Below, piece after piece: positions 10,323 through 30,236 of a stretch of DNA of 30,236 nt (positions are counted from its first letter, which is position 1; each line of letters opens with the position of its first letter). Position numbers and translations under genes: made by a program. Source of the stretch: a virus; IMG/VR virus record IMGVR_UViG_3300010883_009484, positions 1-30,236 of that record; one strand, written 5' to 3'. Under the pieces are notes generated by a model. That model did no database searches. It was not told where the DNA came from and worked only from the letters and a program-made list of their open reading frames with translations.

Positions 10323-10325
10323 ATA
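10318..10325 (+). promoter_or_regulatory. Late promoter octamer TATAAATA
   Basis: An exact match to the T4 late consensus TATAAATA, placed over the stop codon (TAA at 10320-10322) of the upstream fibre gene and 29 bases before the ATG at 10355. An AGAGG ribosome site lies between them. Confidence 0.7.
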
Positions 10326-13461: not shown

Positions 13462-14024
13462 CATACGTAATCTTTAACAAAGACTCAGGAGCAATTATCA
13501 GTGTTGGTAACGAAGCATCTGAAACTGATAGCTATATTCAAGTACCGTTAGTTGATGTACTTACAATTATTACAGGCGATGAACGAGCAACTAATTATCA
13601 CGTACAGTATAATCCAAAAACAAAAGAACTTGAGTTTCAGTCAAAGCACGAATTTACTTTAGATTCAACAACAGTTAAAGATTTTATTTACGAGTTACCA
13701 CAAGATAGTATTGATGACGCTGATGTTCAAGTAATACAAGATATACCTAATTCTTGTTGGAAAATAAAACTAGGTGATTCTTTAAAATCTAACATTAAAA
13801 ATAAAGGCATTAATTTAAATGCTAGATTTTTGTTTAGTATTACTAAGAAAGGTGACCCTAACATATTGTACAAAACTCTTAATGTGCATATAGGCCAGAC
13901 GGTCTCTGATAATTACTGTATAGTACCATTTGATATGCCGTTTGAAACAACGAGTGTGCCTATAAGTGTTTACACGTCGAGAAGATTTGACACTTATCAA
14001 CTAACGAGGATTGTTAATGAGTAA
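13449..14024 (+). CDS. Protein of unknown function, 191 aa
   Basis: ATG at 13449 with AGGAAG at 13435-13440, overlapping the previous gene by 13 bases. The product has no membrane segment, signal or recognised catalytic motif. It alternates short beta-like strands (KLAYVIFNKDSGAIISVG at the start, ARFLFSITKKGDPNILYKTL near 120-140) with acidic turns, so it looks like a beta-sandwich or structural accessory. Its place between glycosyltransferase-like genes suggests either a carbohydrate-binding partner or a virion part that is decorated. Neither is shown by the sequence. Confidence 0.65.
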   Translation: MSKLAYVIFNKDSGAIISVGNEASETDSYIQVPLVDVLTIITGDERATNYHVQYNPKTKELEFQSKHEFTLDSTTVKDFIYELPQDSIDDADVQVIQDIPNSCWKIKLGDSLKSNIKNKGINLNARFLFSITKKGDPNILYKTLNVHIGQTVSDNYCIVPFDMPFETTSVPISVYTSRRFDTYQLTRIVNE

Positions 14025-14910
14025 AATTAGAATAGTAGATCAAGATATTATCTTTTTGTCATATGACGAGCCTAACGCAGAAAAAAATTACGCAGATTTG
14101 TGTGCAAAAGTACCGTGGGCAAAACGTGTACACGGAGTAGAAGGTTCAGATGCAGCACATAAAGCCTGTGCTGACCTAAGTGAAACAGAATATTTTATTA
14201 CTGTTGATGCAGATAACATTGTGGACCAAGAGTTTTTAAATGTAGAAGTTGATTACGAACAATTAGAACTATCACCAGAGCACGTTTTTAGTTGGTGCGG
14301 CAAAGTACACGTTAACGAACTAATGTACGGCAACGGTGGACTAAAAATGTGGACACGTAAGTTTGTACACAATATGAAAACACACGAACATTCGGAAGAT
14401 GGCGATGAAAGAGGCAAAGTAGAATTTTGTTTTGATGACAAGTATCATCAGTTTAATGAAAACTACAGTGTTTCCTATACTAACGCAACACCTTGGCAGG
14501 CTTGGAGAGCAGGTTTTAGAGAAGGTGTTAAAATGAGTTTAGATCAAGGCGCCAAAGTTAGTGATATTAGAAAAACGTGGTTTCAAAACTTTGATCGTTT
14601 GCGTATTTGGTGCTCAGTTGGTGCCGATGTAGAAAATGGACTATGGAGTATGTATGGTGCTCGTGAAGGCCTGTACAAAACTATGTGTACAGACTGGGAC
14701 TATGCAGAAGTGCGTGATTTTAAATGGCTTAATTCATATTGGAAAGACAAAGTACAAGACGAAAGCGATCTATTAGAAGCAATTGAAGATTACGGCAACA
14801 AGTTAAGATCAAACCTTGGATTAGAAATTGCTGAATTAGATGCAAATGGCAGTCATTTCTTTAAATCTTTATATCACAATACTCCAAGAGTAATTAGGAA
14901 GAAAAAATGA
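14017..14910 (+). CDS. GT-A-like glycosyltransferase family protein, 297 aa
   Basis: ATG at 14017 with CGAGGA six bases ahead; an upstream TTG at 14011 is less likely. It overlaps the previous gene by 8 bases and ends in an ATGA overlap with the next. It opens DIIFLSYDEPNAEKNYADL, then WAKRVHGVEG, then TEYFITVDADNIVD with Asp-Ala-Asp at 64-66, as in GT-A enzymes. A conserved C-terminal block (DRLRIWCSVGADVENG ... GAREG) recurs in the shorter gene at 21280, so the two are paralogues. The C-terminal ~70 residues are extra and end in Lys-rich RVIRKKK. The likely role is sugar transfer in the same pathway; acceptor and donor are unknown. Confidence 0.65.
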   Translation: MSKIRIVDQDIIFLSYDEPNAEKNYADLCAKVPWAKRVHGVEGSDAAHKACADLSETEYFITVDADNIVDQEFLNVEVDYEQLELSPEHVFSWCGKVHVNELMYGNGGLKMWTRKFVHNMKTHEHSEDGDERGKVEFCFDDKYHQFNENYSVSYTNATPWQAWRAGFREGVKMSLDQGAKVSDIRKTWFQNFDRLRIWCSVGADVENGLWSMYGAREGLYKTMCTDWDYAEVRDFKWLNSYWKDKVQDESDLLEAIEDYGNKLRSNLGLEIAELDANGSHFFKSLYHNTPRVIRKKK

Positions 14911-16289
14911 ATAATGAACTAGAAAAAATTAAGAACATTATTCCAATTACTGACGCAACAATCAGTCCCACATTCTGTATGGCTAAATGGCATCATACAA
15001 CTATCTATCTTGCAACAGGCGAAACGCACAGTTGTTATCATCCAGCACCTCATAAAATTCCGCTGGAAGAAATTAAAAACAACCCTAGTGCATTACATAA
15101 TACAAAAGAAAAAAAAGAACAACGTAGGCAAATGATTAAAGGCGAAAAGCCTAGCGGATGCAACTATTGCTGGAAGATTGAAGCAATGGGTAAAGATTTC
15201 GTTAGTGATAGACACATTAAAACTGCGAGTATCTATACTCCAGAACGACTCACAGAAATTAAAGAAAACGGATTCAATTATGACATCAACCCTGAATATA
15301 TCGAAATTAGCTTCTCGAACGAATGTAACTTTAAGTGCGGTTACTGTCATCCAAAAGCCTCGAGTAGATACTACAACGAAATCAAACAACACGGCCCGTA
15401 CAAAACCTCAACCGACCATAGACAAGACATAGATTGGTTTGAAATTTATCAAAAGGAAGATGATAATCCTTATGTAAAAGCCTGGTGGGAATGGTGGCCT
15501 GAAGTTAGTAAAACATTAAACATTTTACGTATTACTGGCGGCGAGCCTCTTATGCACAAAAGTACTTGGGAATTATTTGAACGATTAGATAAAGATCCTA
15601 AACCACATCTACAGATTGAAATTAATAGTAATATGGGCGTTAAGCCTAAACTAGTAGAAAAACTTGTTAGTGCAGTTAAGAAATTAAAAGCAGATGGTAA
15701 AATTAAAAGTTTTAAATTATACACTAGTATTGATACTTGGACAGGAAGAGCTGAATACACACGAACAGGTTTAGATATTAACCTTTGGGAAAAAAACTTA
15801 GACTATTATCTTTCTAATACAGGCTGGCCCGTAACGTTTATGATTACGTTTAACTTGTTTAGTGTTACAAGTTTTGATACTTTACTTGCTAAAATACTAG
15901 AGTGGCGAAAAAAGTATAACGGAGATCAAAATTCAACACAATGGCAGCGTGTAAGATTTGATACTCCGCATTTAAAAGAACCTACTATATATGATATGAA
16001 TATTTTACCTAAAGAAGAATTTATACCGTATATGGAAAGGCATTTACAGTTCATCGAAAACAATATGGACAATGCCGATCGCACTAAATTTACAACTTTA
16101 GAATACGAAAAATTTAAACGTGTTGTAGAGTATATGCGAACAACGCATTACGATAGTGTTGCATTAAAGCAAGCACGTAAAAACTTTTATAATTGGTTTA
16201 CAGAACACGATCGTAGAAGAAACACAAATATTATAGAATCATTTCCAGAATTAGAAAACTTTTGGAAATTAACACAGGAAGAACTATGA
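14907..16289 (+). CDS. Radical SAM protein with N-terminal cysteine-rich (twitch/SPASM-like) domain, 460 aa
   Basis: It starts at the ATGA overlap (14907) with AGGAAG upstream. Residues 24, 43, 85 and 88 are Cys (FCMAKW, HSCYHP, GCNYCW), which could hold an auxiliary iron-sulfur cluster in an N-terminal module. The core motif CNFKCGYC gives Cys 140, 144 and 147 for the radical-SAM 4Fe-4S cluster, with YIEISFSNE ahead of it. ITGGEPL near residue 209-215 is the SAM-binding GGE motif. EINSNMG follows as the next strand. Enzymes of this class split SAM to the 5'-deoxyadenosyl radical and abstract hydrogen from a substrate. Auxiliary-cluster radical SAM enzymes often act on peptides or sugars. It has the same architecture as the gene at 25273. 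The codon pattern around 15230-15420 is richer in C-ending codons. Substrate unknown. Confidence 0.9.
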   Translation: MNNELEKIKNIIPITDATISPTFCMAKWHHTTIYLATGETHSCYHPAPHKIPLEEIKNNPSALHNTKEKKEQRRQMIKGEKPSGCNYCWKIEAMGKDFVSDRHIKTASIYTPERLTEIKENGFNYDINPEYIEISFSNECNFKCGYCHPKASSRYYNEIKQHGPYKTSTDHRQDIDWFEIYQKEDDNPYVKAWWEWWPEVSKTLNILRITGGEPLMHKSTWELFERLDKDPKPHLQIEINSNMGVKPKLVEKLVSAVKKLKADGKIKSFKLYTSIDTWTGRAEYTRTGLDINLWEKNLDYYLSNTGWPVTFMITFNLFSVTSFDTLLAKILEWRKKYNGDQNSTQWQRVRFDTPHLKEPTIYDMNILPKEEFIPYMERHLQFIENNMDNADRTKFTTLEYEKFKRVVEYMRTTHYDSVALKQARKNFYNWFTEHDRRRNTNIIESFPELENFWKLTQEEL

Positions 16290-17314
16290 GCAAAACAGTA
16301 TTAGTAACAGGCGGTGCAGGCTTTGTTGCACATCATTTAGTTGACAAAATTTTAACAGAAACTGACTGGAGGATTGTTACCTTAGATAGATTAGATTATA
16401 GTGGCAATTTAAATAGATTACACGAAGTAATGTTAAAACATCCGGAAAAAGAAAGACAACGAGTACGTGTAATACATCACGACCTTAAAGCAGAACTTAA
16501 CCCACAAATCAGAGCAATGATTGGTAAGGTTGATATGATTGCACACCTTGCAGCCGGTTCACACGTAGATAGAAGTATTACATATCCTATGGAGTTTGTA
16601 CTAGACAATGTTGTAGGTACTGCAAATTTACTTGATTATGCTCGTAATCTTGATACTCTAGATATGTTTGCTTATTTTTCAACAGATGAAATATTTGGGC
16701 CAGCACCGGGCAATATAAAATATAAAGAAAATGACAGATATAACAGTACAAATCCATACAGTGCTTCAAAAGCGGGAGCCGAAGAGCTAGTTGTAGCATA
16801 TGAAAATACTTACGGACTTCCTAGTATTATTACACATACTATGAATGTATTTGGTGAACGCCAAAACGCAGAAAAATATATTCCAATGTGTATTAAGAAA
16901 GCAAGAGACAACGAACTTGTAACAGTACATTCAAATGCTGAAAAAACTATTGCAGGATCACGTCATTATATCCACGCTGAAGATGTTGCAGATGCTTTAA
17001 TGTTCTTATACAATTACGATCTAAGTAAGTTAGGACCAGACGAAACTGGTGCAAAGTGTCAAAAATTTAATATTGTAGGTAGTACAGAAATTAACAACTT
17101 AGAACTTGCACAGTTTATTGCAGACACACAAGGCAAACCATTAAATTATGAAATGGTAGACTTTCATAGTAGTCGTCCAGGACACGATTTGCGTTATGCA
17201 CTAGATGGTTCTAAGATGGCTGATATGGGATGGCAGCCCAGCAGTGCTTATGATAAATTAGAAAAAGTAATCGACTGGACATTGAAAAACAATAGGTGGT
17301 TGGTTAATGGTTAA
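16286..17314 (+). CDS. NAD-dependent sugar-nucleotide dehydratase/epimerase, dTDP-glucose 4,6-dehydratase-like, 342 aa
   Basis: I chose ATG at 16286, in an ATGA overlap; a TTG start further up would sit inside the previous gene. Residues 6-13 (LVTGGAGF) are the Rossmann NAD-binding loop. STDEIFGP (132-139) provides the catalytic Ser/Thr-Asp-Glu region and YSASK (158-162) the catalytic Tyr-xxx-Lys. SRHYIHAEDVADAL and the FGERQNAEKYIPM block match the 4,6-dehydratase branch (RmlB-like). The length is typical for the family. It would convert an NDP-glucose-type sugar to a 4-keto-6-deoxy intermediate, in NAD-dependent fashion in the cytoplasm, feeding the surrounding glycosyltransferases. Which nucleotide sugar is used cannot be told. 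Confidence 0.88.
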   Translation: MSKTVLVTGGAGFVAHHLVDKILTETDWRIVTLDRLDYSGNLNRLHEVMLKHPEKERQRVRVIHHDLKAELNPQIRAMIGKVDMIAHLAAGSHVDRSITYPMEFVLDNVVGTANLLDYARNLDTLDMFAYFSTDEIFGPAPGNIKYKENDRYNSTNPYSASKAGAEELVVAYENTYGLPSIITHTMNVFGERQNAEKYIPMCIKKARDNELVTVHSNAEKTIAGSRHYIHAEDVADALMFLYNYDLSKLGPDETGAKCQKFNIVGSTEINNLELAQFIADTQGKPLNYEMVDFHSSRPGHDLRYALDGSKMADMGWQPSSAYDKLEKVIDWTLKNNRWLVNG

Positions 17315-18074
17315 TTTTCAACAACTATTACAGTCCGTTGAAAATTTTAAAACTACCGAGCCTTATAATTACAGCGTGATTGAAAACTTTTTAGAAGATG
17401 ATTGTGCCCGTAGTGTGGCACAAGAATTTCCTGACTTTGATAGTAAAAATTATAATGGAAATTATACTAATCAGATTGAACTTAAAAAGACTTGTAATAT
17501 CTGGGATAGATTTTTGCCCAACACTTATAAACTTTTACACTATTTAAATAGTCCAGAGTTTGTTGACCAAATGTGTATGCTTACAGGATGCGATGAATTA
17601 ATTGCAGACCCTGGATTACACGGCGGCGGACAACATATACACCCAAACGGCGGTAAACTTAATCCTCATCTAGATTATAGTATTCATCCTAAATTAGGAT
17701 TGCAACGTAAATTTAATTTGTTGATATACCTAACGCCAGACTGGAACGAATCGTGGGGAGGAGATTTTGGTATATGGAACAAAGACCATACACTAAACAC
17801 ATCTATTTCTCCACAGTTTAATCGTGCTATCATTTTTGACACAACACAAGATAGTTTACACGGGTTATCAACACACGTAAATTGTCCAGATAACAAAACA
17901 CGAAATAGTATTGCTGTATATTGCCTTACTCCTGCTCCTAAAGATGCAGATAAAAGAAACCGTGCATTGTTTGTACCAACTGAAGAACAAAAAAATAATA
18001 AAGATATTTTAGATTTGATTGAAAGACGAAGTAAAGTGTCAGGGAAAAATGTAGAAGAATGGGATCGAAAATGA
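17307..18074 (+). CDS. 2-oxoglutarate/Fe(II)-dependent oxygenase, 255 aa
   Basis: ATG at 17307 with AGGTGG at 17293-17298, overlapping the dehydratase gene by 8 bases. The double-stranded beta-helix motif set is visible: PHLDYS gives His121 and Asp123, DSLHG gives His185 (Fe ligands), and KTRNSIAVY gives Arg199 for the 2-oxoglutarate carboxylate. GGGQHIHPNGG precedes the first ligand as in prolyl-hydroxylase-like enzymes of phages. The reaction would be O2-dependent hydroxylation or similar oxidation of an unknown peptide, sugar or small molecule. The tail (EWDRK) runs into the next gene by an ATGA overlap. Placed among sugar and radical SAM genes, a surface-modifying role is plausible. Confidence 0.85.
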   Translation: MVNFQQLLQSVENFKTTEPYNYSVIENFLEDDCARSVAQEFPDFDSKNYNGNYTNQIELKKTCNIWDRFLPNTYKLLHYLNSPEFVDQMCMLTGCDELIADPGLHGGGQHIHPNGGKLNPHLDYSIHPKLGLQRKFNLLIYLTPDWNESWGGDFGIWNKDHTLNTSISPQFNRAIIFDTTQDSLHGLSTHVNCPDNKTRNSIAVYCLTPAPKDADKRNRALFVPTEEQKNNKDILDLIERRSKVSGKNVEEWDRK

Positions 18075-19393: not shown

Positions 19394-20464
19394 ATGTTTC
19401 ATCATCAAATTAAAAAAATTAATAACGATTTAAAACGTACTAAACGAGCTATTATAAGTTTTGGATGTTCTTTTGTTGAAGGCCAAGGAGCAATTGATCA
19501 AGACCTATATGAAACTTCTGAATGGAGTATGGACCACGTTGGTATTCCAATGACTGCTAATTTATCAAAAAAAGAACGCGATAGACTATTAAAAACCAAT
19601 CCGTTGTTATACACAAATTTACAAGGTGAAATTCAGTGGGAAAAAATGGAACAGAAGAATGCATTTGTAAATGTTTTATGTAACAAGTACTATGGTAATT
19701 CTTGGACACCTATTAATTTTGGTATTCGAGGAAGGGGCAATCGAGCATCGATAAGAAATTTATATTATTGGCCTGAGCTACAATTAAAACGTGCGAAAGA
19801 AATTATAGTTGTGTGGTCACCTAGTGGGATGGAAAGATATGATTTTGTAAATGACGTATTTGATGAGCATAATATGTTTCACACAGTATGGCCACATAAA
19901 AATCAAGACCATTTGCAAGGTCCGCGAAAGCAATTATGGGATGCCTATGCTGATGGTGTATACACTGAGAAGCAAGCAGTTCTTGAAACTATTGCAACTG
20001 CACTTGAACTAAAAAATTGGTGTACGGCACATAAAGCAAAATTAATTATTACTCCAGCGTTTGATGAAGGGTATACAAAAAAGAATATGATTCAGAGATT
20101 GAATGATATCTGCATAAGAAATGGTGACAATGTGTTGCAACGGCATTTTAGATCAGGCGAAAATTCAATGAAAGAAGCATTGCTTCGTAAAAAACAATAT
20201 TATGCAGGGTATTCAGATACTATGACTAAGATTGTTGAACAATGGCCGTGGGAAGATATGTTTAAGCCGCAGGATCAGTTAACGTTTGCTCAGTTGTGTA
20301 CTAAGCAAGAAAAAGAACAAGTTCATTTTTGGGAATACAGTGGAAAAGGCTCACCTAATGACTGGATAACAGTTTGTGCCCATCCTAGTGCTAAAGGTCA
20401 CGATTTGTTTGCAGAGGAAATTTATAAAAAAATAGAAGGCGTTTATAAAAATGGGAACATTTAA
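19394..20464 (+). CDS. SGNH/GDSL-type hydrolase or acyltransferase, 356 aa
   Basis: ATG at 19394 immediately after the previous TAA, with AGGAAG upstream. Residues 19-31 (RAIISFGCSFVEG) carry the Gly-Cys-Ser nucleophile block (Ser26), NFGIRGRGNRASIRNL (~108-123) supplies the block II/III-type Gly/Asn residues, and CAHPSAKGHDLFAEEIY near the C-terminus gives His330 and His336 as the general-base block. The order and spacing fit the SGNH superfamily, whose members hydrolyse or transfer acyl groups on sugars and lipids. The central ~150 residues (EKQAVLETIATALELKNW ...) are an insertion-like helical region. It overlaps the next gene, also SGNH-like, by 14 bases. Substrate unknown; deacetylation or acylation of glycan is a reasonable guess. 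Confidence 0.75.
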   Translation: MFHHQIKKINNDLKRTKRAIISFGCSFVEGQGAIDQDLYETSEWSMDHVGIPMTANLSKKERDRLLKTNPLLYTNLQGEIQWEKMEQKNAFVNVLCNKYYGNSWTPINFGIRGRGNRASIRNLYYWPELQLKRAKEIIVVWSPSGMERYDFVNDVFDEHNMFHTVWPHKNQDHLQGPRKQLWDAYADGVYTEKQAVLETIATALELKNWCTAHKAKLIITPAFDEGYTKKNMIQRLNDICIRNGDNVLQRHFRSGENSMKEALLRKKQYYAGYSDTMTKIVEQWPWEDMFKPQDQLTFAQLCTKQEKEQVHFWEYSGKGSPNDWITVCAHPSAKGHDLFAEEIYKKIEGVYKNGNI

Positions 20465-21248
20465 GTGGTCATCGGCTAAAAATTTACCTTGGTATTTTGA
20501 TAGAAAAAAGTTTCAACAGTTAGGGTGGATAACCTTACCAGATCATAGAGACAGCTCAGTAATTACTAATCATTTTGCAATGGGAGATACCTACCAGCTG
20601 TATAAGAAAAACAAGACAGCACTAGGACCTAATTGGCATTATTTTAATAAGCAAATAACATACACTTGTAACTCACAAGGATACAGGGCACCCGAATTTG
20701 ATACAGTTGATTGGAAAAACAGTATTGTAGTTTTTGGTTGTTCAATGGTAGCAGGTATAGGTGTTGATGATACAGAAACTATTACACATCAATTACATTT
20801 AAAATCAGGTCGACCTGTAATTAATATGGGAGCACCGGGTGCAGGCCTTGATGTTACTTTGTGGAATAATTTTATACTTAACTCACAATATCCAAAGCCT
20901 TGGGCAGTAGTAAACCTATTTACAAATTTTCATAGATTTTGTATATACAGAGAAAAGGATGTAAGTTATGTAGGTCCTTGGGACGACACTAATCCAGCAT
21001 ATACAAGTTATATGCAACACCCTAATCATAGTGTAATCAAAGCAATGCAACAAACAGACCAAGTTAAGTATATGTGGCAAGATACTAGAACATTTTATGG
21101 CTCGTTTTTTGACGAGTCAGCACACCACGCAAGCACAGATCATAGATTGCTATTTCATAATACTGCTAGAGATCTTCAACACTGTGGTCTAAAAGATAAT
21201 AAAAGAAATGCTGCACTAATTTGGTCGTATCTACAAACTCCAGCTTGA
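20451..21248 (+). CDS. Second SGNH-like hydrolase, 265 aa
   Basis: ATG at 20451 inside the previous gene (14-base overlap). SIVVFGCSMVAGIGV places the nucleophile Ser98 in a GCS block, followed by PVINMGAPGAGLDVTLWNNF, whose Gly and Asn fit blocks II/III. ARDLQHCG near residue 239-246 supplies the Asp-x-x-His pair (241/244). It belongs to the same superfamily as the upstream gene but is not a close copy; the N-terminal ~90 residues are different and hold several Trp. The stop TGA (21246-21248) lies within the -35 box of the next promoter. Likely an esterase or acyl-transfer partner of the preceding enzyme; substrate unknown. Confidence 0.72.
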   Translation: MGTFKWSSAKNLPWYFDRKKFQQLGWITLPDHRDSSVITNHFAMGDTYQLYKKNKTALGPNWHYFNKQITYTCNSQGYRAPEFDTVDWKNSIVVFGCSMVAGIGVDDTETITHQLHLKSGRPVINMGAPGAGLDVTLWNNFILNSQYPKPWAVVNLFTNFHRFCIYREKDVSYVGPWDDTNPAYTSYMQHPNHSVIKAMQQTDQVKYMWQDTRTFYGSFFDESAHHASTDHRLLFHNTARDLQHCGLKDNKRNAALIWSYLQTPA

Positions 21249-21273
21249 CAATAATAGTATAAGGTGTTATAAT
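21245..21273 (+). promoter_or_regulatory. Consensus sigma70 promoter TTGACA-N17-TATAAT, apparently leaderless
   Basis: TTGACA at 21245-21250, exactly 17 bases, then TATAAT at 21268-21273: both hexamers perfect. The ATG at 21280 starts 7 bases after the -10 box ends, about where transcription should begin, so the first message may have little or no leader. An AAGGTG at 21261-21266 lies inside the promoter spacer and is too far and too early for normal initiation from this start. Confidence 0.75.
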
Positions 21274-21279
21274 TACAAG

Positions 21280-21957
21280 ATGTATGATATCGTTTTTATC
21301 AGTTATAATGAAGCATATGCTGAAGATAACTGGAATATGTTAAAAAGTAGGTTTCCAACGGCTAAAAGAGTGGACGGAGTAAAAGGAATTCATCAAGCAC
21401 ATATTAAGGCAGCAAAGAAATGCTTTACTAAGATGATTTGGGTTGTTGATGCAGATGCTCAAATAGTTGATGACTTTGATTTTAGTTACGAAGTTGACAA
21501 ATACTCACTGGATGCTGTACACGTTTGGAGAAGTAGAAATCCTATAAACAGTCTTGAATACGGATATGGAGGAATTAAATTATTTCCTAGAAATTTAACA
21601 CTAAAGATGGATATTACAAAAACAGATATGACTACTAGCATTAGTGACAAGTTTAATGCAATACCAGAGGTATCAAATATTACAGCATTTAATACAGATG
21701 AATATTCAACTTGGCGCAGTGCATTTAGAGAATGTGCTAAGTTAGCAAGTAAGACTATAGAGAGACAAAACGAGGAGGAAACAAATGAAAGACTTAGAAT
21801 TTGGACAACAGTGGGAAAAGACAAACAGTTCGGCGAATACTGTATTAAAGGTGCTATCGCTGGCAGGGAGTTTGGGCTTTCTAGCAAGCCTAATTTACAA
21901 TTAATAAACGACTTTGATTGGTTATATGAACAATTTTCAAAAAATACCGTGGAATAA
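21280..21957 (+). CDS. GT-A-like glycosyltransferase family protein, short form, 225 aa
   Basis: ATG at 21280, supported by alignment of its first residues (MYDIVFISYNEAYAEDNW) with the paralogue at 14017. AKRVDGVKG, then MIWVVDADAQIVD with Asp57-Ala-Asp59, then EYGYGGIKLF, and a C-terminal ERLRIWTTVGKD ... GAIAG block match that paralogue region by region, but the C-terminal extension (~70 residues) is missing. The likely enzyme type is the same (nucleotide-sugar dependent transferase). It is directly driven by the consensus promoter, so it would be strongly expressed early. It overlaps the following radical SAM gene by 32 bases. Confidence 0.65.
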   Translation: MYDIVFISYNEAYAEDNWNMLKSRFPTAKRVDGVKGIHQAHIKAAKKCFTKMIWVVDADAQIVDDFDFSYEVDKYSLDAVHVWRSRNPINSLEYGYGGIKLFPRNLTLKMDITKTDMTTSISDKFNAIPEVSNITAFNTDEYSTWRSAFRECAKLASKTIERQNEEETNERLRIWTTVGKDKQFGEYCIKGAIAGREFGLSSKPNLQLINDFDWLYEQFSKNTVE

Positions 21958-22930
21958 TATTACAGAGTTTGGGCAAAAGACTCTGCTCAATACCAACCTC
22001 TTCACAGTCTCTTGGATACTAGCTAGGTTTTGTAATTACAATTGTAGCTATTGTTGGCCATATGCAAGGTCAAGTACACCTGATCATCAAAAATTAGAAG
22101 TATACCTTAAAACATTAGACAGTATCAAAGCGCAGGCTCGTGCAAACGGCTTTACAGACTTTCACTTTAGTTTTAGTGGGGGAGAACCTACAGCATATAA
22201 ATACTTTGGGGAGATTATAGATCATTATTGCAGTGATGCAACACCCGAATATCAAAGTATACATATGACAACTAACTTGTCACCTGGAAGTAAATGGTGG
22301 AACAAATGGATAGAGTCAACAAATGCTTTGCAACGTAGAAGTATAACAGCAAGCTATCACGCAGAGTTTGCTAATGAACAAGAGTTTGGAGATAAATGTC
22401 TTCAGCTTATGAAAGGTGGCGTATATGTTACGATCAATCAAGTTATGGTTCCTGAAATGTTTCAAGAGCTTTACGAACGCTTACAACGATTTGCCGCCAG
22501 AGGCATTAATGTTACTCTCAAACCCCAATCTGATCCTACCGCCAGTTTCGTGGTACACGGATACCAGCAAGATCAAATCGAAAAAATGCAAACAGGGTTC
22601 CCTCAAAGAATCCCAGAAGCCTTTAAAGGAATAATTTCTACATTAGGTGTAGAGCTTATAGATGATAAAGGTAAAAAATACTACGTAGATCAAGCAGAAC
22701 GCTTCAATGCGTTTGGATTTAACAAGTTTAAAGGCTGGACCTGTAATGCAGGGTACCAAGGATGCGTTATACGTGAAAACGAAGTAAAACGCAGTTATAG
22801 CTGCCAAGATGAACCATTAGGCACGTTAGACGGCGGGTTTGAGCTGTTTAAAGCACCATCTAAGTGCATTACTCCTAGTTGTGTAAGCAGTGCAGATAGT
22901 AAACTTCCAAAGGTAAAGTATGAAAGTTAA
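21926..22930 (+). CDS. Radical SAM protein with C-terminal cysteine-rich tail, 334 aa
   Basis: I chose ATG at 21926; an upstream TTG is internal to the previous gene. The motif RFCNYNCSYCWPY gives Cys 36, 40 and 43 of the SAM-binding 4Fe-4S cluster, and FHFSFSGGEPTAYK has the GGEP motif. MTTNLSPG is the next strand. The C-terminal part has KFKGWTCNAGYQGC ... SYSCQDE ... KCITPSC, enough Cys for at least one more metal cluster, as in SPASM/twitch enzymes. It is similar in this tail to the genes at 27712 and 29715(-). It overlaps the methyltransferase-like gene by 11 bases. Bases 22500-22620 use unusually many C- or G-ending codons for this window. Substrate unknown. Confidence 0.88.
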   Translation: MNNFQKIPWNNITEFGQKTLLNTNLFTVSWILARFCNYNCSYCWPYARSSTPDHQKLEVYLKTLDSIKAQARANGFTDFHFSFSGGEPTAYKYFGEIIDHYCSDATPEYQSIHMTTNLSPGSKWWNKWIESTNALQRRSITASYHAEFANEQEFGDKCLQLMKGGVYVTINQVMVPEMFQELYERLQRFAARGINVTLKPQSDPTASFVVHGYQQDQIEKMQTGFPQRIPEAFKGIISTLGVELIDDKGKKYYVDQAERFNAFGFNKFKGWTCNAGYQGCVIRENEVKRSYSCQDEPLGTLDGGFELFKAPSKCITPSCVSSADSKLPKVKYES

Positions 22931-23525
22931 TATACAAGACGTATTATTTTGGATGGATGCTATTCGAGACAGTGATGATAGGTATCGCACACTTGAAAGT
23001 TTTTGGAAAGGCCAAGTAAACAGTAAAGTATGGTTAGCTGAGAACCTAATAGGATTTGTACCTGTTAGACCGTTAAATATCGTCATATACGGTGGTTGGA
23101 ACGGTGTGCTGGCAAGTATACTCTTTAACTCTAACATTGCTATACAACGCATTACAAGCGTTGATATAGACCCTGTGTGCGAAGATATAGCAAACACTGT
23201 AAATAGACGCTACGTAGATCAAAGCAAGTTTACAGCAATAACAGCAGATATGACAACAGTTATAGATGAGTCTGCTGACGTTGTTATTAATACCAGTTGT
23301 GAGCATATTACACAGGAACAGTATGACAAATGGTTGAACAATCAACCAAATAATGCTACAATTGTGTTGCAGAGCAATAACTATTTTAACTTAGACGAGC
23401 ATATTAGATGCAGTACGGATTTAGAGGATTTTGTGCGTATGAGCAACATTAATCCTTATTTGCGTAAAACATTAGAAACACTCAAGTATGATCGTTATAT
23501 GTTAATAGGTAAAAAGAATGTTTAG
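22920..23525 (+). CDS. SAM-dependent methyltransferase-like protein, 201 aa
   Basis: ATG at 22920 with AAGG upstream, overlapping the preceding gene by 11 bases. LNIVIYGGWNGVLASILF (residues 52-69) fits the class I motif I loop in degenerate form (GGWNG in place of GxGxG). ITSVDIDPVCEDIA provides the acidic residues (Asp82 or Asp84) that hold the SAM ribose, FTAITADMTTV is motif II-like, and DVVINTSCEHI (~119-129) is motif IV/V-like. The length is short but adequate for a Rossmann methyltransferase core. Methylation of a sugar, peptide or small product of the neighbouring radical SAM enzymes is possible. The degenerate glycine loop makes activity uncertain. Confidence 0.7.
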   Translation: MKVNIQDVLFWMDAIRDSDDRYRTLESFWKGQVNSKVWLAENLIGFVPVRPLNIVIYGGWNGVLASILFNSNIAIQRITSVDIDPVCEDIANTVNRRYVDQSKFTAITADMTTVIDESADVVINTSCEHITQEQYDKWLNNQPNNATIVLQSNNYFNLDEHIRCSTDLEDFVRMSNINPYLRKTLETLKYDRYMLIGKKNV

Positions 23526-24585
23526 GTTTAGTGAATTAAAAAATATACATCTAGAAATTACAAATAGATGTCAAGCAAGTTGCCCAATGTGCAGCAGAAA
23601 TATTCACGGAGGTCTTGAAAATCCGTTAATTAAAAACCAAGACTGGACTACTAACGACTTTAAAAATATATTAAGTGAAGAAGTGTTGTATCAACTACAA
23701 GGATTTTATTTTTGTGGTAACTTTGGCGATCCTATTATTAATAATGATCTAATAGAAATGTGCGAATATAGTACAGGCGTTAATCCTAATTTGTATATTA
23801 GAATACACACTAATGGAGGCGCACGAAGTAAAGATTGGTGGAAAAAACTTGCAAAGGCATTGCCACCGGCGCATAATGTTATTTTTGCAATTGACGGATT
23901 AGCAGACACGCACAGTTTATATCGTGTTGGTACAGACTTTAACAAAGTATTAGAAAATGCAAAAGCATTTATTCAAGCAGGCGGCACAGCAGAATGGGCA
24001 TTTATTAAATTTAAACATAACGAACATCAACAACTTGCGTGTGAAGCACTAGCAAAAGAACACGGCTTTGCTAGATTTACATATAAAGACAGCGCACGAT
24101 TTGTTGCTACTGAAAAATTTCCAGTGTATGATGCAGACGGCAACACAGTACGTTATTTAGAACCTCCTACTGGAAGCAAAATTAATCTTATTACACAAGA
24201 TGTAATTGACAACTACCAAGATATTTTAGATGCAAGTGAAATTGATTGTTACGTTGTACAAACAAAAGAAATTTACATAGACGCATATAAAAAAGTTATG
24301 CCGTGCTGTTTTCTTGCAAGCACCCCTTACAACTATTCAACACCTAATGACATTGCAAAGGATATTAAACGACAAATTGATTTACAATATAACGATCTTA
24401 TTTACGATCTTGGTAATACAAATGCATTAAATTATTCCATTAAAGAAATTATTAATTCTACAAGTTGGCAATTAGTATGGGACAAATATTGGAATGAGAA
24501 AAAATTAATTACTTGTGCAAGAACTTGCGGAGTTAACAAACTTAGCAAACCAAAAGATCAATTTATTCAAAAGGTAGAATTATGA
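23518..24585 (+). CDS. Radical SAM protein, single-core type with C-terminal Cys, 355 aa
   Basis: ATG at 23518, overlapping the previous gene by 8 bases. ITNRCQASCPMCSRN gives Cys 18, 22 and 25 of the 4Fe-4S site. The GGEP motif is replaced by FCGNFGDPIIN (~62-72), a variant known in other radical SAM families, and RIHTNGGARS follows. C-terminal Cys include EIDCYV (244), MPCCF (263-264) and CARTCGVN (333 and 337), consistent with a SPASM-like auxiliary cluster. IFAIDGLADTHSLYRVG is a typical substrate-side strand of peptide-modifying and sugar-modifying members. It ends in an ATGA overlap with the PP-loop gene, so the two products may act together. Confidence 0.87.
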   Translation: MFRFSELKNIHLEITNRCQASCPMCSRNIHGGLENPLIKNQDWTTNDFKNILSEEVLYQLQGFYFCGNFGDPIINNDLIEMCEYSTGVNPNLYIRIHTNGGARSKDWWKKLAKALPPAHNVIFAIDGLADTHSLYRVGTDFNKVLENAKAFIQAGGTAEWAFIKFKHNEHQQLACEALAKEHGFARFTYKDSARFVATEKFPVYDADGNTVRYLEPPTGSKINLITQDVIDNYQDILDASEIDCYVVQTKEIYIDAYKKVMPCCFLASTPYNYSTPNDIAKDIKRQIDLQYNDLIYDLGNTNALNYSIKEIINSTSWQLVWDKYWNEKKLITCARTCGVNKLSKPKDQFIQKVEL

Positions 24586-25280
24586 TACACTTTAATGCAG
24601 ATTGGAAAAACATTGGCATTAGTTTAAGTGGTGGGGCCGATAGTGCGTTATTAGCATACCTAGTATGTTCACAAATTAAAGATACTAAAGTGCATATTCT
24701 TAGTCACGTAAGAATGTGGAAGACACGACCGTGGCAGCGTTATGATAGTATACGTGTTTTTGAATGGTTACAGCAACGCTTTCCGAATATAGAGTTTGTA
24801 AGACACGAAAACTTTATTCCGCCTGATCTTGAGTACGGCGACAAGGGTGCTTACATTGAAGATGAATATGGCCAAATACGCAGCGGAGATCAAATTATTG
24901 TAAGAGCTCACGCTGAATGGATTGCAGTAACACATAATCTTAATGCTTGGTATGCCGGCAAAACTAAAAACCCAAGCGATCCTACAATCACAAAAGGTAT
25001 GCCAGATAGAGATATTATAGTTGAAGATCCTAACGAATTAGTAAAGGATCACAAAGGAGTTGCAGTGTGTCATCCGTTTTTGTATACTGAAAAAGATGAA
25101 ATTATTGCTCAGTATGTATCTCATAATATTCTCGACTTATTAAATATTACTCGTAGCTGTGAAGGCGATTTTGCTGACATTGATTACACAACGTATACTC
25201 CAAATCAAATAGTTCCAGAGTGTGGAGAATGTTTTTGGTGTCAAGAGCGCAACTGGGCAAAGGAAAAGAATAATGTCTGA
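24582..25280 (+). CDS. QueC-like PP-loop ATPase, 232 aa
   Basis: ATG at 24582 (ATGA overlap). ISLSGGADSALLAYLV has the PP-loop signature SGGxDS (Ser16-Ser21), which binds ATP pyrophosphate in adenylating enzymes. The C-terminus has SCEGD (Cys193) and ECGECFWCQERNWA (Cys214, 217, 220), the zinc-site arrangement of 7-cyano-7-deazaguanine synthase QueC, which E. coli has at 231 aa; the gap before the CxxCxxC part is longer here (20 residues versus 8 as I recall for QueC). It would adenylate a carboxylate and form an amide or nitrile from ammonia. The neighbours are not the usual QueD/QueE pathway, so the substrate may be new. LPS amidotransferases of the WbpG type are an alternative. Confidence 0.75.
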   Translation: MIHFNADWKNIGISLSGGADSALLAYLVCSQIKDTKVHILSHVRMWKTRPWQRYDSIRVFEWLQQRFPNIEFVRHENFIPPDLEYGDKGAYIEDEYGQIRSGDQIIVRAHAEWIAVTHNLNAWYAGKTKNPSDPTITKGMPDRDIIVEDPNELVKDHKGVAVCHPFLYTEKDEIIAQYVSHNILDLLNITRSCEGDFADIDYTTYTPNQIVPECGECFWCQERNWAKEKNNV

Positions 25281-26661
25281 CTTAGAAAATTATAAAGCAG
25301 AAATAGAAAAGATATCGGGTACACCTACTTTTTGCGTCTTACCTTGGATACACTTTGCTACACGACCTAATGGTGATATGAGATTATGTTGTAGTGCAAA
25401 CGCAAGTGGTGCAGGTGATGATCACGAAGTAGGATTAGTTAAAATGGAGGATGGATTACCAGCAAACTTTGGTAAGCATACTCCAATGGAAGCCTGGAAC
25501 AACGAGTATATGAAAAGTGCAAGGCGCACTATGTTAGCAGGACAAGTGCCTGCAAGTTGTCGTAAATGTTTTAAAGAAGAAAGCCAAGGAGTTGTAAGTA
25601 AACGTATTTGGGAAACAGGTACTTGGCACAGAGATGAGAATGGGGTAGATATTCCTTATTTAATTGAACAAACTAAAGCAGACGGAACAGTACCGGAAGA
25701 GTTAGTTTACTTAGATTTAAGATTAGGTCACACTTGTAATATTAAGTGTGTAATGTGTAGTCCGCACGATAGTAGCAAATGGGTAGCAGATCATAAAAAA
25801 CTTATTCCTTTATTGCAGGATCCTGAAGTTAAAAGGCAAATGCAATTTGATAAAAGTACATTCAATAATAAGTGGCACGAAAAAGATACGTTCTGGGAAG
25901 AAATGTATGCACAGATACCTAATCTAAAACAAGTGTACTTTGCAGGCGGTGAGCCTCTAATGATTAAAGAACACAAAATGTTTATTGAAGAAATCATTAG
26001 GCAAGGTTATCAAGACAAAATATTGTTACGTTACAATTCAAATGGACTGTTAGTAGACGAAGATTTAATTCAGTTATGGTCAAGGTTTAAAAAAGTAAAG
26101 TTTGCTATTAGTATGGATGCTAGTCACGGACGTGATGAATACATACGTTTTCCTACAAACTTTGATACTGTAGAAAAAACACTACATATGCTTGACAACA
26201 CTCCTGACAACATACAAACAAGTTTAGCAACAGCAATACAAATATTCAACGTAAAACATTTGCCAGACTTTATGAAGTGGAAACTTGAAAGCGGATTTAA
26301 GAAATTAAATAACGGCACAGTCCCTGGCGGAGTACAAATGGGCGGTGGCTTAGTTAATATGCACTTACTGTACATTCCGACTTTCCTTAGTATACAAATA
26401 CTACCAGAACACGACAAGCAAGAAGTTAAAGAACGCTTTATGGACTTTAAAGATTGGTTATGGAACAACTACAGACAAGACGACGACTTTTGGAAAAATA
26501 ATCCTTATGGATGGAAACGTTGGGAAGCGGTTCTTAATCATATGAACGCACAGGATAATAGTCACTTGTTGCCGGGCTTTAAAGAATATACAAACAAACT
26601 TGATGCAATACGTAATCTAAACGCAGCAAAAGTATTTCCTGAATTGGCACATTTATTGTAA
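25273..26661 (+). CDS. Radical SAM protein with N-terminal cysteine domain, 462 aa
   Basis: ATG at 25273 with AAAGGA upstream, overlapping the PP-loop gene by 8 bases; a farther TTG lies inside that gene. The N-terminal domain has FCVLPWIHFAT (Cys21), MRLCCSAN (39-40) and ASCRKCF (96 and 99). The core CNIKCVMC gives Cys 155, 159 and 162, and FAGGEPL near 223-230 is the SAM-binding motif. SMDASHGRDEYIRFPTNFD matches the substrate-side strand seen in twitch/SPASM proteins. The layout (Cys-rich N-domain, then radical SAM core) is the same as in the gene at 14907. Partners: the PP-loop protein before it and radical SAM gene after it (TAATG, one-base overlap, no clear ribosome site, suggesting re-initiation). 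Confidence 0.88.
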   Translation: MSDLENYKAEIEKISGTPTFCVLPWIHFATRPNGDMRLCCSANASGAGDDHEVGLVKMEDGLPANFGKHTPMEAWNNEYMKSARRTMLAGQVPASCRKCFKEESQGVVSKRIWETGTWHRDENGVDIPYLIEQTKADGTVPEELVYLDLRLGHTCNIKCVMCSPHDSSKWVADHKKLIPLLQDPEVKRQMQFDKSTFNNKWHEKDTFWEEMYAQIPNLKQVYFAGGEPLMIKEHKMFIEEIIRQGYQDKILLRYNSNGLLVDEDLIQLWSRFKKVKFAISMDASHGRDEYIRFPTNFDTVEKTLHMLDNTPDNIQTSLATAIQIFNVKHLPDFMKWKLESGFKKLNNGTVPGGVQMGGGLVNMHLLYIPTFLSIQILPEHDKQEVKERFMDFKDWLWNNYRQDDDFWKNNPYGWKRWEAVLNHMNAQDNSHLLPGFKEYTNKLDAIRNLNAAKVFPELAHLL

Positions 26662-27725
26662 TGGATAAGTTTACTACAATTGAACCTGTAAGAGATAAGT
26701 TTTTTCACGTTGAGTGGGAAACCACTCTAAAGTGCAATCTTGATTGTAGTTACTGTGGAGATGGTCACGACAATAGTTTACCTCACCCAAGTTTACGAGA
26801 AAGTCTTAATACTGCTGACTTTATATTTGAGTATGTAAGTCATTATATGCAACTAAAGCCAAAAGAACATAGACACGTAAACATTAATGTGTTCGGCGGT
26901 GAAAGTTTGTTTCATCCTAAGATACCAGACATTTTAAAATATTTAAGAAGCAAAAGAGAACTGTATGATTTTTCTTGTAATGTAAGTACAATTACTAACG
27001 CTATTGTAGGACCTCATCTTTGGGGAAGACTAGTTGATTTATTAGATTATTTTACAATTAGTTTTCACGCAGAAAGCACACCAAAACAACAGCGTATGCT
27101 AAGAAACAATGTGCTGTACTTAATGAAGCACGACAAGCAGTTTCAAGTAAACATTATGATGCATCCTAAACACTGGGAAGCCTGCCGTGATATGGAAGAA
27201 TGGTGTAAACAGCAAGGTGTAAGATATCACTTGCGTCAAATTGACCATTCTATTTTTGACAGACGATTTAATTATTCAGCAGAACAAAGCGAATACCTTA
27301 CAGGAGAAAAACCTGTAGGATTAGCTACAATAGCATTGGCGGCAGTTACAGGACAAATTAATTTATCAGAGTCTGGTAGAGCGTGTTGCGGTGGACAAGA
27401 ATTATGTTGTGGATCAGCAACAACTGAATGGGTGCCTGGAAATAACTTTAAAGGTTGGCACTGTTCAGTAAATGAGTTTTTTCTTTATATCAAACAAAAC
27501 ACTGGCGAAGTTTATACTAACAAAGATTGTAAAATGAACTTTAATGGCAGTGTTGGTCCTATTGGACATTTATCAGATACTCCTGCTATACTAGAAAGTA
27601 TAAAAAATACTTCACCTATTATATGTAAGAAAAGAAGTTGTTGGTGCGGGATATGTGCGCCCAAGGCTAAAACACAACACGAGTATGAACGAATAATGGT
27701 AAAGTATCACGATGAAACTAACTAG
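26661..27725 (+). CDS. Radical SAM protein with two C-terminal Cys clusters, 354 aa
   Basis: ATG at 26661, sharing one base with the previous stop. TTLKCNLDCSYCGDG gives Cys 25, 29 and 32, and NVFGGESLFH (~78-87) is a GGE-type motif. The C-terminal third has ACCGGQELCCG, FKGWHCSVNEFFLYI, YTNKDC and SCWCGICAPK, about ten Cys in all, which could bind one or two auxiliary iron-sulfur clusters. It is most similar to the minus-strand gene at 28664-29728 (same CCGG, FK-W-CSVN, CGxCxPKAK blocks). Substrate unknown. It overlaps the next gene by 14 bases. Confidence 0.88.
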   Translation: MDKFTTIEPVRDKFFHVEWETTLKCNLDCSYCGDGHDNSLPHPSLRESLNTADFIFEYVSHYMQLKPKEHRHVNINVFGGESLFHPKIPDILKYLRSKRELYDFSCNVSTITNAIVGPHLWGRLVDLLDYFTISFHAESTPKQQRMLRNNVLYLMKHDKQFQVNIMMHPKHWEACRDMEEWCKQQGVRYHLRQIDHSIFDRRFNYSAEQSEYLTGEKPVGLATIALAAVTGQINLSESGRACCGGQELCCGSATTEWVPGNNFKGWHCSVNEFFLYIKQNTGEVYTNKDCKMNFNGSVGPIGHLSDTPAILESIKNTSPIICKKRSCWCGICAPKAKTQHEYERIMVKYHDETN

Positions 27726-28683
27726 AGTTGAAAATAACTTAAAGCCAAATCAGTTGCGTATTGAATATATGCTTGGTAATTTATGTAACCATAAATGTTC
27801 ATATTGCTTCCCGGGCAGTAATGAAGGTTCACATCCTTGGCCGGACATTGATCAAGTTAAAACAAATCTTTCACATTTACTTAATCATTATGTAAAGCAG
27901 GGTAAAGATTATTTCCAATTATATCTAATTGGCGGCGAACCAACACTATGGAAAGAGCTTCCTGAATTTTGTCGTTATTTCAAACAGAATTTTAATTGTC
28001 AAATTAATATTAGTACTAACGGGTCAAGATCAGTATCGTGGTGGGAAAGAAATGCAGATTGTTTTGATGTTGTTGAAATTAGTGTGCATCACGAATTTGC
28101 AAAAGTAGAACATCTTAAAAAAGTTTCAGATTTGATTTATAAAAAGAACATTTACGTAAACTGCAATGTACTAATGGATTATGGGTATTTTGATAAATGT
28201 AAAGCTATTATTGAGCAGCTAAAGACAAGTAAAAAACGCTGGCCAATTATTGCAAAGACGGTAAACATAAATGGCGCAACATTTTATAATCCTGAAGAAA
28301 CAACGTATCTTGAAAAAAGTCTTAAACGTGTACCTAACTTACTTTGGTATTGGCGTAATAAAATAGACACAGAGTTAAAACTTAAACTTACATTTGAAAA
28401 CGGCACAACTAAAAAAGTTACTGGAGATAATTATATTTCAGTACACAACCTAAATAAGTTTGAAGGTTGGACTTGTGAACTAGGCTTAGATGTAATAAAA
28501 ATATTTCAAGAAGGCAATATTAAATCTAATTGTCAACAAACACTGTATAGATTAAATCGCGATTATAATTTATATGATAAAGATTTTGTTAAAGACTTTA
28601 GTCCACGATTGTGTAATGTAATTTGTGAACAAAAGATTTGTGGCTGTAGTGGCGAAATTAGTATTAATAAGATTGCACCTTAA
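27712..28683 (+). CDS. Radical SAM protein with Cys-rich tail, 323 aa
   Basis: ATG at 27712. MLGNLCNHKCSYCFPG gives Cys 25, 29 and 32; LYLIGGEPTLW near 81-91 is the GGEP motif; INISTNGS follows. The tail NKFEGWTCELGLDVIKIF ... SNCQQT ... LCNVICEQKICGCSG has at least five Cys and aligns with the tails of the genes at 21926 and 29715(-). It ends TAA at 28681-28683, converging with the minus-strand radical SAM gene and overlapping it by 20 bases. No terminator hairpin is visible in the overlap. Substrate unknown. Confidence 0.87.
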   Translation: MKLTRVENNLKPNQLRIEYMLGNLCNHKCSYCFPGSNEGSHPWPDIDQVKTNLSHLLNHYVKQGKDYFQLYLIGGEPTLWKELPEFCRYFKQNFNCQINISTNGSRSVSWWERNADCFDVVEISVHHEFAKVEHLKKVSDLIYKKNIYVNCNVLMDYGYFDKCKAIIEQLKTSKKRWPIIAKTVNINGATFYNPEETTYLEKSLKRVPNLLWYWRNKIDTELKLKLTFENGTTKKVTGDNYISVHNLNKFEGWTCELGLDVIKIFQEGNIKSNCQQTLYRLNRDYNLYDKDFVKDFSPRLCNVICEQKICGCSGEISINKIAP

Positions 28684-29728
28684 TAATTTCTTTATAATCT
28701 TCAAATGACTTTGCTTTGGGAACACACATACCACAACCACATCTTAGGTTTGGACATACTATTGTTTCATTTTTATTTTTGTTAGCATATTCAATTATAG
28801 CATCAGTGTTACTAAGGTTACCTAACGGGCCTCTTAGACCGTTGTGTAGTGCTTGGCACGTTTGATGATGGTATACGCTGCCAGTATGTTGATCAATGTG
28901 TAAGAAGTACTTGTTAACGCTACAAAACCAATCTTTAAAGTGTGTATCAACCATTGTAACTTCTTGCCACTCGTTGTTTACTTTACCTTTTAAACAGCGT
29001 CCGCCACAGCATTTACGTCCGAGCTCAGTTCCAGCTCGAGTGCCTACAGCAGGCTTTGGCATATTAGTGTAATCAAAAAACCAATTTTGTTGTTCGTCTG
29101 TGTAGTCGTGAGTTGTTCTACGTTGACTGCCATCACTGTCAGTAAACCACCCTTTGCGTTCTGCATTGCCATCGCCAATCGGGCGTGGATTATGTGTAAT
29201 ACCTAGTTCTTTAAGTTCTTCGCATACTGCTACACCTTCATCCCAATTATCAGTGTGTAGCATTACATTAACTTGTAACCATATTCCTTTAGCGTGTAAC
29301 AATTTAATGTTGTCTAATGTTTGTTGTTTTAGTTTGCTATGCCCTTCTGTGTGATAACTTACTGTAACACCTTCAAATAGCTCTGTTATACGATCTGTAT
29401 TTTTAGGATGCCAAGCACCGTTGGTAGTTAAACTAAGTCTAAAACGTGTTTCGTTATTTTTAATGTACTCAGCTAATTGCCAAAATGCAGGATTAACAGT
29501 AGGTTCGCCGCCTGTAAAGTTTATATTAACTAGGTCAGAATAGATGCTAGTATATTCTTTTACAAACTTAAATGTGCGTAATAATTCTTCATAGCTGTGG
29601 GGAGAACTAATGTTGTCGTGACGGCTTATTTCGCAATAACTGCAATCAAAATTACACCTACGCCCAGTGTCCCACGTAACCATTAATCGTTCGGGGCCTG
29701 TAAGATTTATAGCATCAGTTACTATCAT
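28664..29728 (-). CDS. Radical SAM protein with two C-terminal Cys clusters, minus strand, 354 aa
   Basis: ATG at 29728 (a TTG lies one codon ahead). TGRRCNFDCSYCEIS gives Cys 25, 29 and 32 from that ATG, NFTGGEPTVNP near 69-79 is the SAM motif, and LSLTTNGAWH follows. The C-terminal third has RKCCGGRCLKG, FKDWFCSVNKYFLHI, HHQTC and CPNLRCGCGMCVPKAK. These blocks mirror the plus-strand gene at 26661, so the pair are paralogues in opposite orientation. It overlaps the upstream minus-strand gene by 14 bases. Together with that gene it forms an outward run from the right edge converging on the plus-strand cassette. Confidence 0.88.
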   Translation of the reverse strand: MIVTDAINLTGPERLMVTWDTGRRCNFDCSYCEISRHDNISSPHSYEELLRTFKFVKEYTSIYSDLVNINFTGGEPTVNPAFWQLAEYIKNNETRFRLSLTTNGAWHPKNTDRITELFEGVTVSYHTEGHSKLKQQTLDNIKLLHAKGIWLQVNVMLHTDNWDEGVAVCEELKELGITHNPRPIGDGNAERKGWFTDSDGSQRRTTHDYTDEQQNWFFDYTNMPKPAVGTRAGTELGRKCCGGRCLKGKVNNEWQEVTMVDTHFKDWFCSVNKYFLHIDQHTGSVYHHQTCQALHNGLRGPLGNLSNTDAIIEYANKNKNETIVCPNLRCGCGMCVPKAKSFEDYKEIIKVQSY

Positions 29729-30236
29729 CAATTTGTTTCACATCTATTTTAGTTAGTGGAATATCAGCAGCACAAGTACACCATTTGCGTGTGCAGTCAA
29801 TCCATTCTTCGGGAGGCTCAAATGTACCTTTGTATATATTACCTAAACTACCGCCTACTCTACACGTAGCACGATGCACATCACCGTCCCAATTAATCAT
29901 TAAACTTTCAATACCTGCTGAACAACTCCAACCTTCAAATTGGTTAAGTTTATGTTTGATAATATCATTGGCGTGCATATAATGTTCATCGTCAATTACA
30001 GTATTTGCCATAGCTTTTGCAGGCTTGCTAAGTATCCATTCAAGATCTTTTTCTTTGTAGCGCATATCATCAAACCAGTCACGGTCATCAGCTTCTGTCC
30101 AACGTATTCGTCTAACTACATACGGAATATTATGTCCGTCAAACATATTACAAGCAGCCTTAACTTTGTCCATATGTTCGTGGTGCGCCATTACATTTAC
30201 TTGGAATGGAATATTCTCTAGTGTTTCATTTAACTG
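29715..30236 (-). CDS. Radical SAM protein, C-terminal part only (5' end beyond right edge)
   Basis: The frame is open to the right edge (30236); the ATG at 30191 is internal. The visible residues start QLNETLENIPFQVNVMAHHE, which aligns with the QVNIMMHPKHW and QVNVMLHTDNW strands of the two other radical SAM proteins nearby, so the core Cys motif should lie outside the window. The tail has FEGWSCSAGIESLMINWDGD ... HRATC ... DCTRKWCTCA, like the genes at 21926 and 27712. About 173 residues are visible. It is the eighth radical SAM protein in the window by my count. The core motif itself cannot be verified here. Confidence 0.75.
   Translation of the reverse strand, partial: QLNETLENIPFQVNVMAHHEHMDKVKAACNMFDGHNIPYVVRRIRWTEADDRDWFDDMRYKEKDLEWILSKPAKAMANTVIDDEHYMHANDIIKHKLNQFEGWSCSAGIESLMINWDGDVHRATCRVGGSLGNIYKGTFEPPEEWIDCTRKWCTCAADIPLTKIDVKQIDDSN

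Follow-up and report, generated by a model that had tools for sequence, protein, structure and literature searches.

Phages with many radical S-adenosylmethionine (SAM) genes have been reported before. The Campylobacter phages CP220 and CPt10 (Firehammervirus) carry 11 and 12 such genes, five of which form an interchangeable 10-kb module upstream of the tail fibre genes (PMC2853527), and radical SAM cassettes distinguish the host-recognition islands of two related pelagimyophages (PMC7029224). A 183-kb T4-like marine phage, TARA_ERS488813_N000010, has 12 radical SAM genes and genes for Fe-S handling (PMC5332604), and radical SAM and glycosyltransferase genes are enriched in Tasman Sea viromes (PMC7150976). 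Here, we describe an island of radical SAM genes in the virus record IMGVR_UViG_3300010883_009484 of IMG/VR; the analysed stretch, positions 1 to 30,236 of that record (30,236 nucleotides), is called the window below. An earlier note, made from the letters alone, had proposed eight radical SAM genes between 14907 and 30236.

The enzymes of this island have the character of steps in a single pathway, or of a set directed at one substrate class, since they are distinct, co-ordered, under purifying selection and mostly represented by one orthologue each. This pathway character is well supported, and we infer the substrate from the surrounding genes: our preferred reading, to which we assign a probability of roughly 0.45, is a multi-step tailoring pathway for a surface glycan of the host envelope or of the virion.

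The window resembles CP220 and CPt10 in being a T4-related phage with a compact radical SAM module, and the CP220 module likewise contains sugar-type genes (nucleoside diphosphate-sugar transferase domains). However, the C- and E-type proteins (types are given below) are only ~25-27% identical between them, CP220 and CPt10 have an amidinotransferase, the QueC-like protein of the window (PP) was not found there, and their module gave no match to its SAM-dependent transferase (MT). The pelagimyophage host-recognition (HRC) islands are similar as variable islands of T4-like phages, located by tail genes, rich in GT8 glycosyltransferases and holding radical SAM cassettes (PMC7029224). C- and MT-like genes also stand in an island of this type in the isolate Mosig EXVC030M, together with a DegT aminotransferase and a carbamoyltransferase; unlike the window, this phage lacks PP, has two PF04055 matches and is only weakly similar (26-27% identity). 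TARA_ERS488813_N000010 shares with the window its T4-like character and its many radical SAM genes. For the conserved core, the QueC-like partner and the Bdellovibrionia counterpart, no earlier description was found in the open-access library searched (subscription journals and preprints were outside this scope).

Radical SAM enzymes and their auxiliary cysteines

Radical SAM proteins were called by a match to PF04055 above the Pfam curated cut-off together with a CxxxCxxC motif. Seven places in the window exceeded this cut-off in intact frames (E 8e-16 to 1e-9), namely A2 (14907..16289), B (21926..22930; 47.3 bits), C (23518..24585), A1 (25273..26661), D1 (26661..27725) and E (27712..28683) on the plus strand, and D2 (28664..29725) on the minus strand, convergent to the main run. 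The first residue of the motif stands at 140, 36, 18, 155, 25, 25 and 24 in these seven complete proteins. The eighth open reading frame, F (29715..30236, minus strand), extends beyond the contig end, and the C-terminal half that remains does not contain the motif. Because its full-length homologues (~300 aa, 73-77% identity) have CxxxCxxC near residue 24, F is assigned as a radical SAM enzyme truncated by the contig end. Therefore, the eight genes were recovered, seven directly and the eighth through its homologues. The coordinates proposed for them were correct, apart from the choice among alternative start codons.

Auxiliary-cluster cysteines outside the core were conserved in the family alignments of all four protein types. 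The A-type proteins, A2 and A1, scored 325.7 and 384.9 bits, respectively, against NF033640 (N_Twi_rSAM, cut-off 170 bits), and the other window proteins remained below this cut-off. They carry an N-terminal twitch domain; its profile aligns with the twitch domain that BtrN has at the C-terminus, and the domain order is therefore swapped relative to BtrN. B and E end in a twitch-like tail in which C255, C274, C305 and C310 (E numbering) are invariant, and eight auxiliary cysteines are conserved in the D-type proteins D1 and D2 (CCGG type). In the alignment of C, C244, C263 and C264 each occur in at least 90% of sequences and C333 and C337 are invariant; we classify this tail as SPASM/twitch-like on its cysteine pattern, which contradicts the earlier description of C as a single-core type. 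The grouping of the earlier note held for the pair with an N-terminal Cys domain (14907, 25273) and for the CCGG pair (26661, 28664), whereas its group based on a GW-x-C tail did not hold, as the CCGG pair shares this tail, which therefore defines no group.

The AlphaFold2 (AF2) model of D1 (predicted local distance difference test, pLDDT, 89.1) contains a partial (beta/alpha)6 barrel and resembles solved radical SAM enzymes; the barrel fold was seen in this model only, and the other radical SAM proteins were assigned by profile. Whole-length matches of the D1 model were to the SPASM enzymes anSME, CteB and ChlB, with which D1, carrying its eight auxiliary cysteines, shares the overall architecture; it differs from them in the low identity (11-16%) and in the lack of a precursor peptide in the phage island. 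BtrN and SpeY, twitch radical SAM enzymes acting on sugar-like rings, were also among the structural relatives found. Against the viperin family NF038283 (cut-off 180 bits), the best window score was 49.3 bits, far below the cut-off. The window enzymes are ~21-33% identical pairwise where alignable, and the only clear paralogue pair, D1 and D2 (33% identity), has a separate clade for each member across phages.

Recurrence in phages and in Bdellovibrionia

Six scans of IMG/VR gave 370 loci, which together with the window and phage CP21 were collapsed to 195 groups; as these loci were recruited with island genes, the counts describe the make-up of islands and not their frequency among phages. 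Five or more radical SAM genes were present in 108 of the 134 groups of long loci (at least 15 kb), with a median of 7 and a maximum of 12 per long locus, and the count over a whole contig reaches 22 (G005, 117 kb). The nearest long relative (G001; 159,618 bp) has 15 radical SAM genes and a Gp23-type capsid gene.

In the trees, each radical SAM enzyme of the window groups in its own clade with orthologues of other phages. Among the 134 long loci, no locus held a second copy of B, D1, D2, F, A3 or MT, and PP, A1 and E were duplicated in two loci each; multiple copies were more frequent for C (34 loci) and A2 (4 loci). These separate orthologous clades, mostly single-copy per locus, support both the earlier statement that the variety is hard to explain by simple duplication and its suggestion of a multi-step pathway. 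The gene order recurs as well, with B>MT>C in 27 loci, C>A1 in 52, A1>E in 63, A1>E>D1 in 17, A3>F>D2 in 20 and PP>A3 in 48, the window itself showing minority forms in PP>A1 (8 loci) and D1>E (4 loci). Independent contigs also hold the genes contiguously and in similar order, so the contiguity that the earlier note wished to see checked was confirmed. D1 and D2 form sister clades (support is poor for some deep branches of both trees), and the tree pattern suggests that an old duplication may lie within two parallel sets, A1-E-D1 and A3-F-D2. Pairwise ratios of nonsynonymous to synonymous substitution (dN/dS) to relatives were 0.06-0.10 for the radical SAM genes and 0.06-0.18 for all measured island genes, values that are approximate because synonymous sites are near saturation; the island genes are under purifying selection.

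The genes form an overlapping run from ~11.4 to 28.7 kb, followed by the convergent set from 28.7 kb. Within 14907-30236, only 31 bp (21249-21279) are not covered by a gene, and among the 15 gene junctions from 14907 on, 13 overlap, one is flush and one has the 31-bp gap. Between neighbouring core genes in relatives (n = 1,131 pairs), the median spacing is -8 bp, 92% of the pairs being flush or overlapping. Because genes overlap throughout the island, there is no room for a precursor peptide, in agreement with the earlier remark that no substrate peptide is evident, and a cluster for a ribosomally synthesised and post-translationally modified peptide with its own precursor was dismissed on the same ground.

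Cofactor synthesis frequently involves radical SAM enzymes, which would fit a set of loosely related auxiliary metabolic genes boosting cofactor or energy metabolism of the host. This explanation, suggested for CP220 (PMC2853527), appears improbable here, as no window protein reached the equivalog cut-off for a cofactor enzyme, and the recurring order and the single-copy orthologue set favour one dedicated pathway.

The earlier note had also considered so many iron-rich, oxygen-sensitive enzymes costly for a phage in an oxygenated, iron-poor sea. This puzzle is eased in part by an A-type Fe-S carrier, encoded in 15 of 35 radical SAM-bearing phage records, and by IscU, encoded in 11 of the 35; however, enrichment in radical SAM-rich contigs was not significant (Fisher p=0.49 and p=0.13, respectively), and neither gene was found in G001. 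The IscU and A-type carrier genes are adjacent on several radical SAM-rich phage contigs (e.g., G018 83363-84029).

Some further observations concern the range of phages. Vibrio phage K566, an isolate (L380), has six PF04055 matches, mostly A-type, within or close to a single region of 30 kb; PagP, annotated in this phage, was considered as envelope evidence and rejected, the annotation being without Pfam support. A search of 22 records found psbA in none of them, and there was thus no sign of cyanophages.

Counterparts of the island genes were also found in bacteria. For those in metagenome-assembled genomes (MAGs), binning errors are possible. A genome scan with the MT alignment gave 13 loci, and MT>A-type pairs were present in two Pseudobdellovibrio MAGs. 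Chromosomal locus L413 of one MAG of the Bdellovibrionia, bacteria of the predatory type, is flanked by a MoxR ATPase and an S49 peptidase and contains two genes of the putative glycosyltransferase GTc followed by A1 and, in the opposite direction, C and B, with proteins 35-50% identical to those of the window. This independent GTc-A1-B-C linkage is the strongest argument for one functional unit. Two Bdellovibrionia MAGs (G037 and G038), one of them the genome with L413, encode 19 A-type (N-terminal-twitch) proteins each, many of them within about 30 kb. At other loci of the two, A-type genes stand with those for carbamoyltransferases, a glycosyltransferase, a YdjC-like protein or adenylylsulfate (APS) kinase.

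The A-type chromosomal island of G037 and G038 is denser still than the phage island, and at ~745-775 kb of G038 contig C1 (L407-L408) A-type genes stand with Asp/Arg-hydroxylase-like and aminotransferase-like genes. A QueC-like PP homologue occurs with A- and C-type radical SAM genes at 170-190 kb of G038 contig C3 (L416), its neighbours being APS kinase, a protein with a phosphoadenylylsulfate (PAPS)-reductase domain and an HMGL-like (isopropylmalate-synthase-type) gene. Distant MT homologues (35-39%) were observed in two alphaproteobacterial loci (L383, L385), with neighbours that are glycosyltransferase-like by eye only.

Partner proteins MT and PP

Two conserved partners without a radical SAM core are encoded within the run. 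The AF2 model of MT (22920..23525, plus strand; pLDDT 95.6) has a class I SAM-transferase fold. In Foldseek, nicotianamine synthase (MtNAS) ranked first, among more than 1,000 similar folds. The match to nicotianamine synthase, the varied tailoring enzymes, the amidinotransferase, carbamoyltransferase and aminotransferase genes of analogous islands and the viperin-like scores of several enzymes, all below cut-off, would be compatible with a diffusible small molecule of natural-product type, such as a metallophore or a compound inhibiting competing phages or bacteria. We consider this product quite unlikely, given that the structural match of MT is generic, that the viperin scores are far under the family cut-off and that the window shows no recognisable synthetase, precursor peptide or exporter.

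PP (24582..25280, plus strand) is a PP-loop ATP pyrophosphatase-like protein with an invariant SGGxDS motif, a QueC-like four-Cys site and a match to phrog_1550. These features, and the presence of QueD and FolE families in CP220, which also carries a radical SAM island, raise the question of DNA-base hypermodification by PP and the radical SAM enzymes, as in 7-deazaguanine systems. Such a role is highly improbable: PP scored 18.4 bits against the QueC family PF06508, under its cut-off of 22, none of the radical SAM proteins reached the QueE cut-off, QueD was absent from 11 of the 15 contigs tested, including G001, and QueD and FolE were never found together in the 15. A preQ0/DNA pathway was rejected accordingly. 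The two families, FolE (GTP cyclohydrolase I) and QueD (6-pyruvoyltetrahydropterin synthase, PTPS), are mutually exclusive among these radical SAM-rich contigs, separating G001, G002, G020, G021 and G032 from G015, G017, G019 and G025.

In the tailoring pathway proposed here, each radical SAM enzyme would form a 5'-deoxyadenosyl radical and then carry out a C-H step, for which dehydrogenation, epimerisation, deoxygenation or bond formation are candidates. The QueC-like ATPase may activate a carboxylate for amide- or nitrile-type chemistry, and MT would transfer a SAM-derived group.

Glycosyltransferase-like genes beside the tail genes

The island starts at 11414, adjoining tail genes that include a tail collar protein (4856..6895, plus strand; PF07484 Collar 61.9 bits; PHROG tail families). 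A protein at 10355..11338 (plus strand) lies between the tail genes and the island, and its homologues occupy the same place in relatives. The overlapping run then opens with u11414 (11414..11767), GTa (11754..12644), GTb (12631..13461), a small protein without a family match (13449..14024) and GTc (14017..14910), all on the plus strand; this order, including the position of u11414 and of the small protein, is kept in seven other contigs, among them that of G001, and in the same seven a tail gene stands before GTa-GTb-GTc. GTa and GTb are GT8-like by a profile match to glycogenin (E 2.5e-5), GTb and a relative exceed a mannosyltransferase cut-off (GTb: PF11051 24.4 bits, cut-off 22), and GTc is a putative GT-A-like protein with an invariant DxD motif. 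By the limits of a pelagimyophage-type HRC island (VrlC to gp14), tail genes flank the window's island on one side, and the contig ends on the other; VrlC was not identified.

The remaining genes of the run are also on the plus strand. Immediately after A2 there is a nucleotide-sugar epimerase/dehydratase of the short-chain dehydrogenase/reductase type (16286..17314; PF16363 158 bits; phrog_540), which with GTb (PF11051) accounts for the curated glycan families in the run. It is followed by a 2-oxoglutarate (2OG)-Fe(II) oxygenase (17307..18074; PF13640), an uncharacterised protein present in 19 contig groups (18059..19393), two proteins without a family match (19394..20464 and 20451..21248; SGNH-hydrolase-like by eye only) and GTc2, a short paralogue of GTc (21280..21957).

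The surface-glycan role is preferred because glycosyltransferase-like and nucleotide-sugar genes are located in the run, their linkage is conserved, the bacterial contexts agree, and analogous islands exist in Mosig EXVC030M and CP220. The sugar-like substrates of the structural relatives BtrN and SpeY also speak for it. The likely product would be an unusual sugar or glycan decoration, placed on the surface polysaccharide of the infected cell or on host-contact proteins of the virion, and such a decoration would change receptor recognition and shut out competing phages. Several results weigh against this reading. The profile search with GTc found no PDB relative and confirmed no family, and the curated glycosyltransferase and nucleotide-sugar families are not constant in relatives. 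G001 gave no match to the PF01370 epimerase or to the PF00535 GT2 family, and in the other relatives epimerases are often far from the island. In addition, the best whole-length matches of D1 are modifiers of peptides or proteins.

This last result and the tail-gene setting point to the main rival of the glycan reading, in which the enzymes would modify a tail fibre or another virion protein, in a proteusin- or sactipeptide-like manner and without a dedicated small precursor. Such maturation needs no precursor peptide, the island adjoins tail genes, and Asp/Arg-hydroxylase-like proteins recur nearby in relatives. We consider it rather unlikely, because glycosyltransferase-like genes lie in the same run, A1, B, C and GTc are found together at a bacterial chromosome locus that has no phage genes, and the phage loci, which covered only ~10 kb on each side, showed no tail protein that is conserved along with the island.

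Two side observations concern this region. Besides the hydroxylase-like proteins, a radical SAM family with a B12-binding domain (L115:15789-17282) recurs near the island, in 34 contig groups, and is absent from the window. A T4-late-promoter-like motif, TATAAATA, stands at 10318-10325 (plus strand), 30 bp upstream of gene 10355 and before the island; since the counts of late-promoter-like motifs (TATAAATA, CTAAATA) were not above chance, they were not taken as evidence of expression timing.

A further reading, which we hold to be somewhat doubtful, is a widespread and previously undescribed phage pathway that Bdellovibrionia chromosomes share in part. In it, at least eight non-redundant radical SAM enzymes of the SPASM/twitch type, organised as parallel sets (A1-E-D1, A3-F-D2), would work with the QueC-like ATPase and a SAM transferase of class I, and the resulting modification of a surface glycan or virion protein would be new in chemical terms. 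Earlier counts treated radical SAM-rich phage genes mainly as unexplained metabolic extras, whereas a conserved, mostly single-copy and ordered core turns them into a defined pathway with named components. If a new surface glycan or protein modification is indeed made, this would show that T4-like phages change recognition during infection by oxygen-sensitive chemistry, and would reveal a large unexplored set of radical enzymes.

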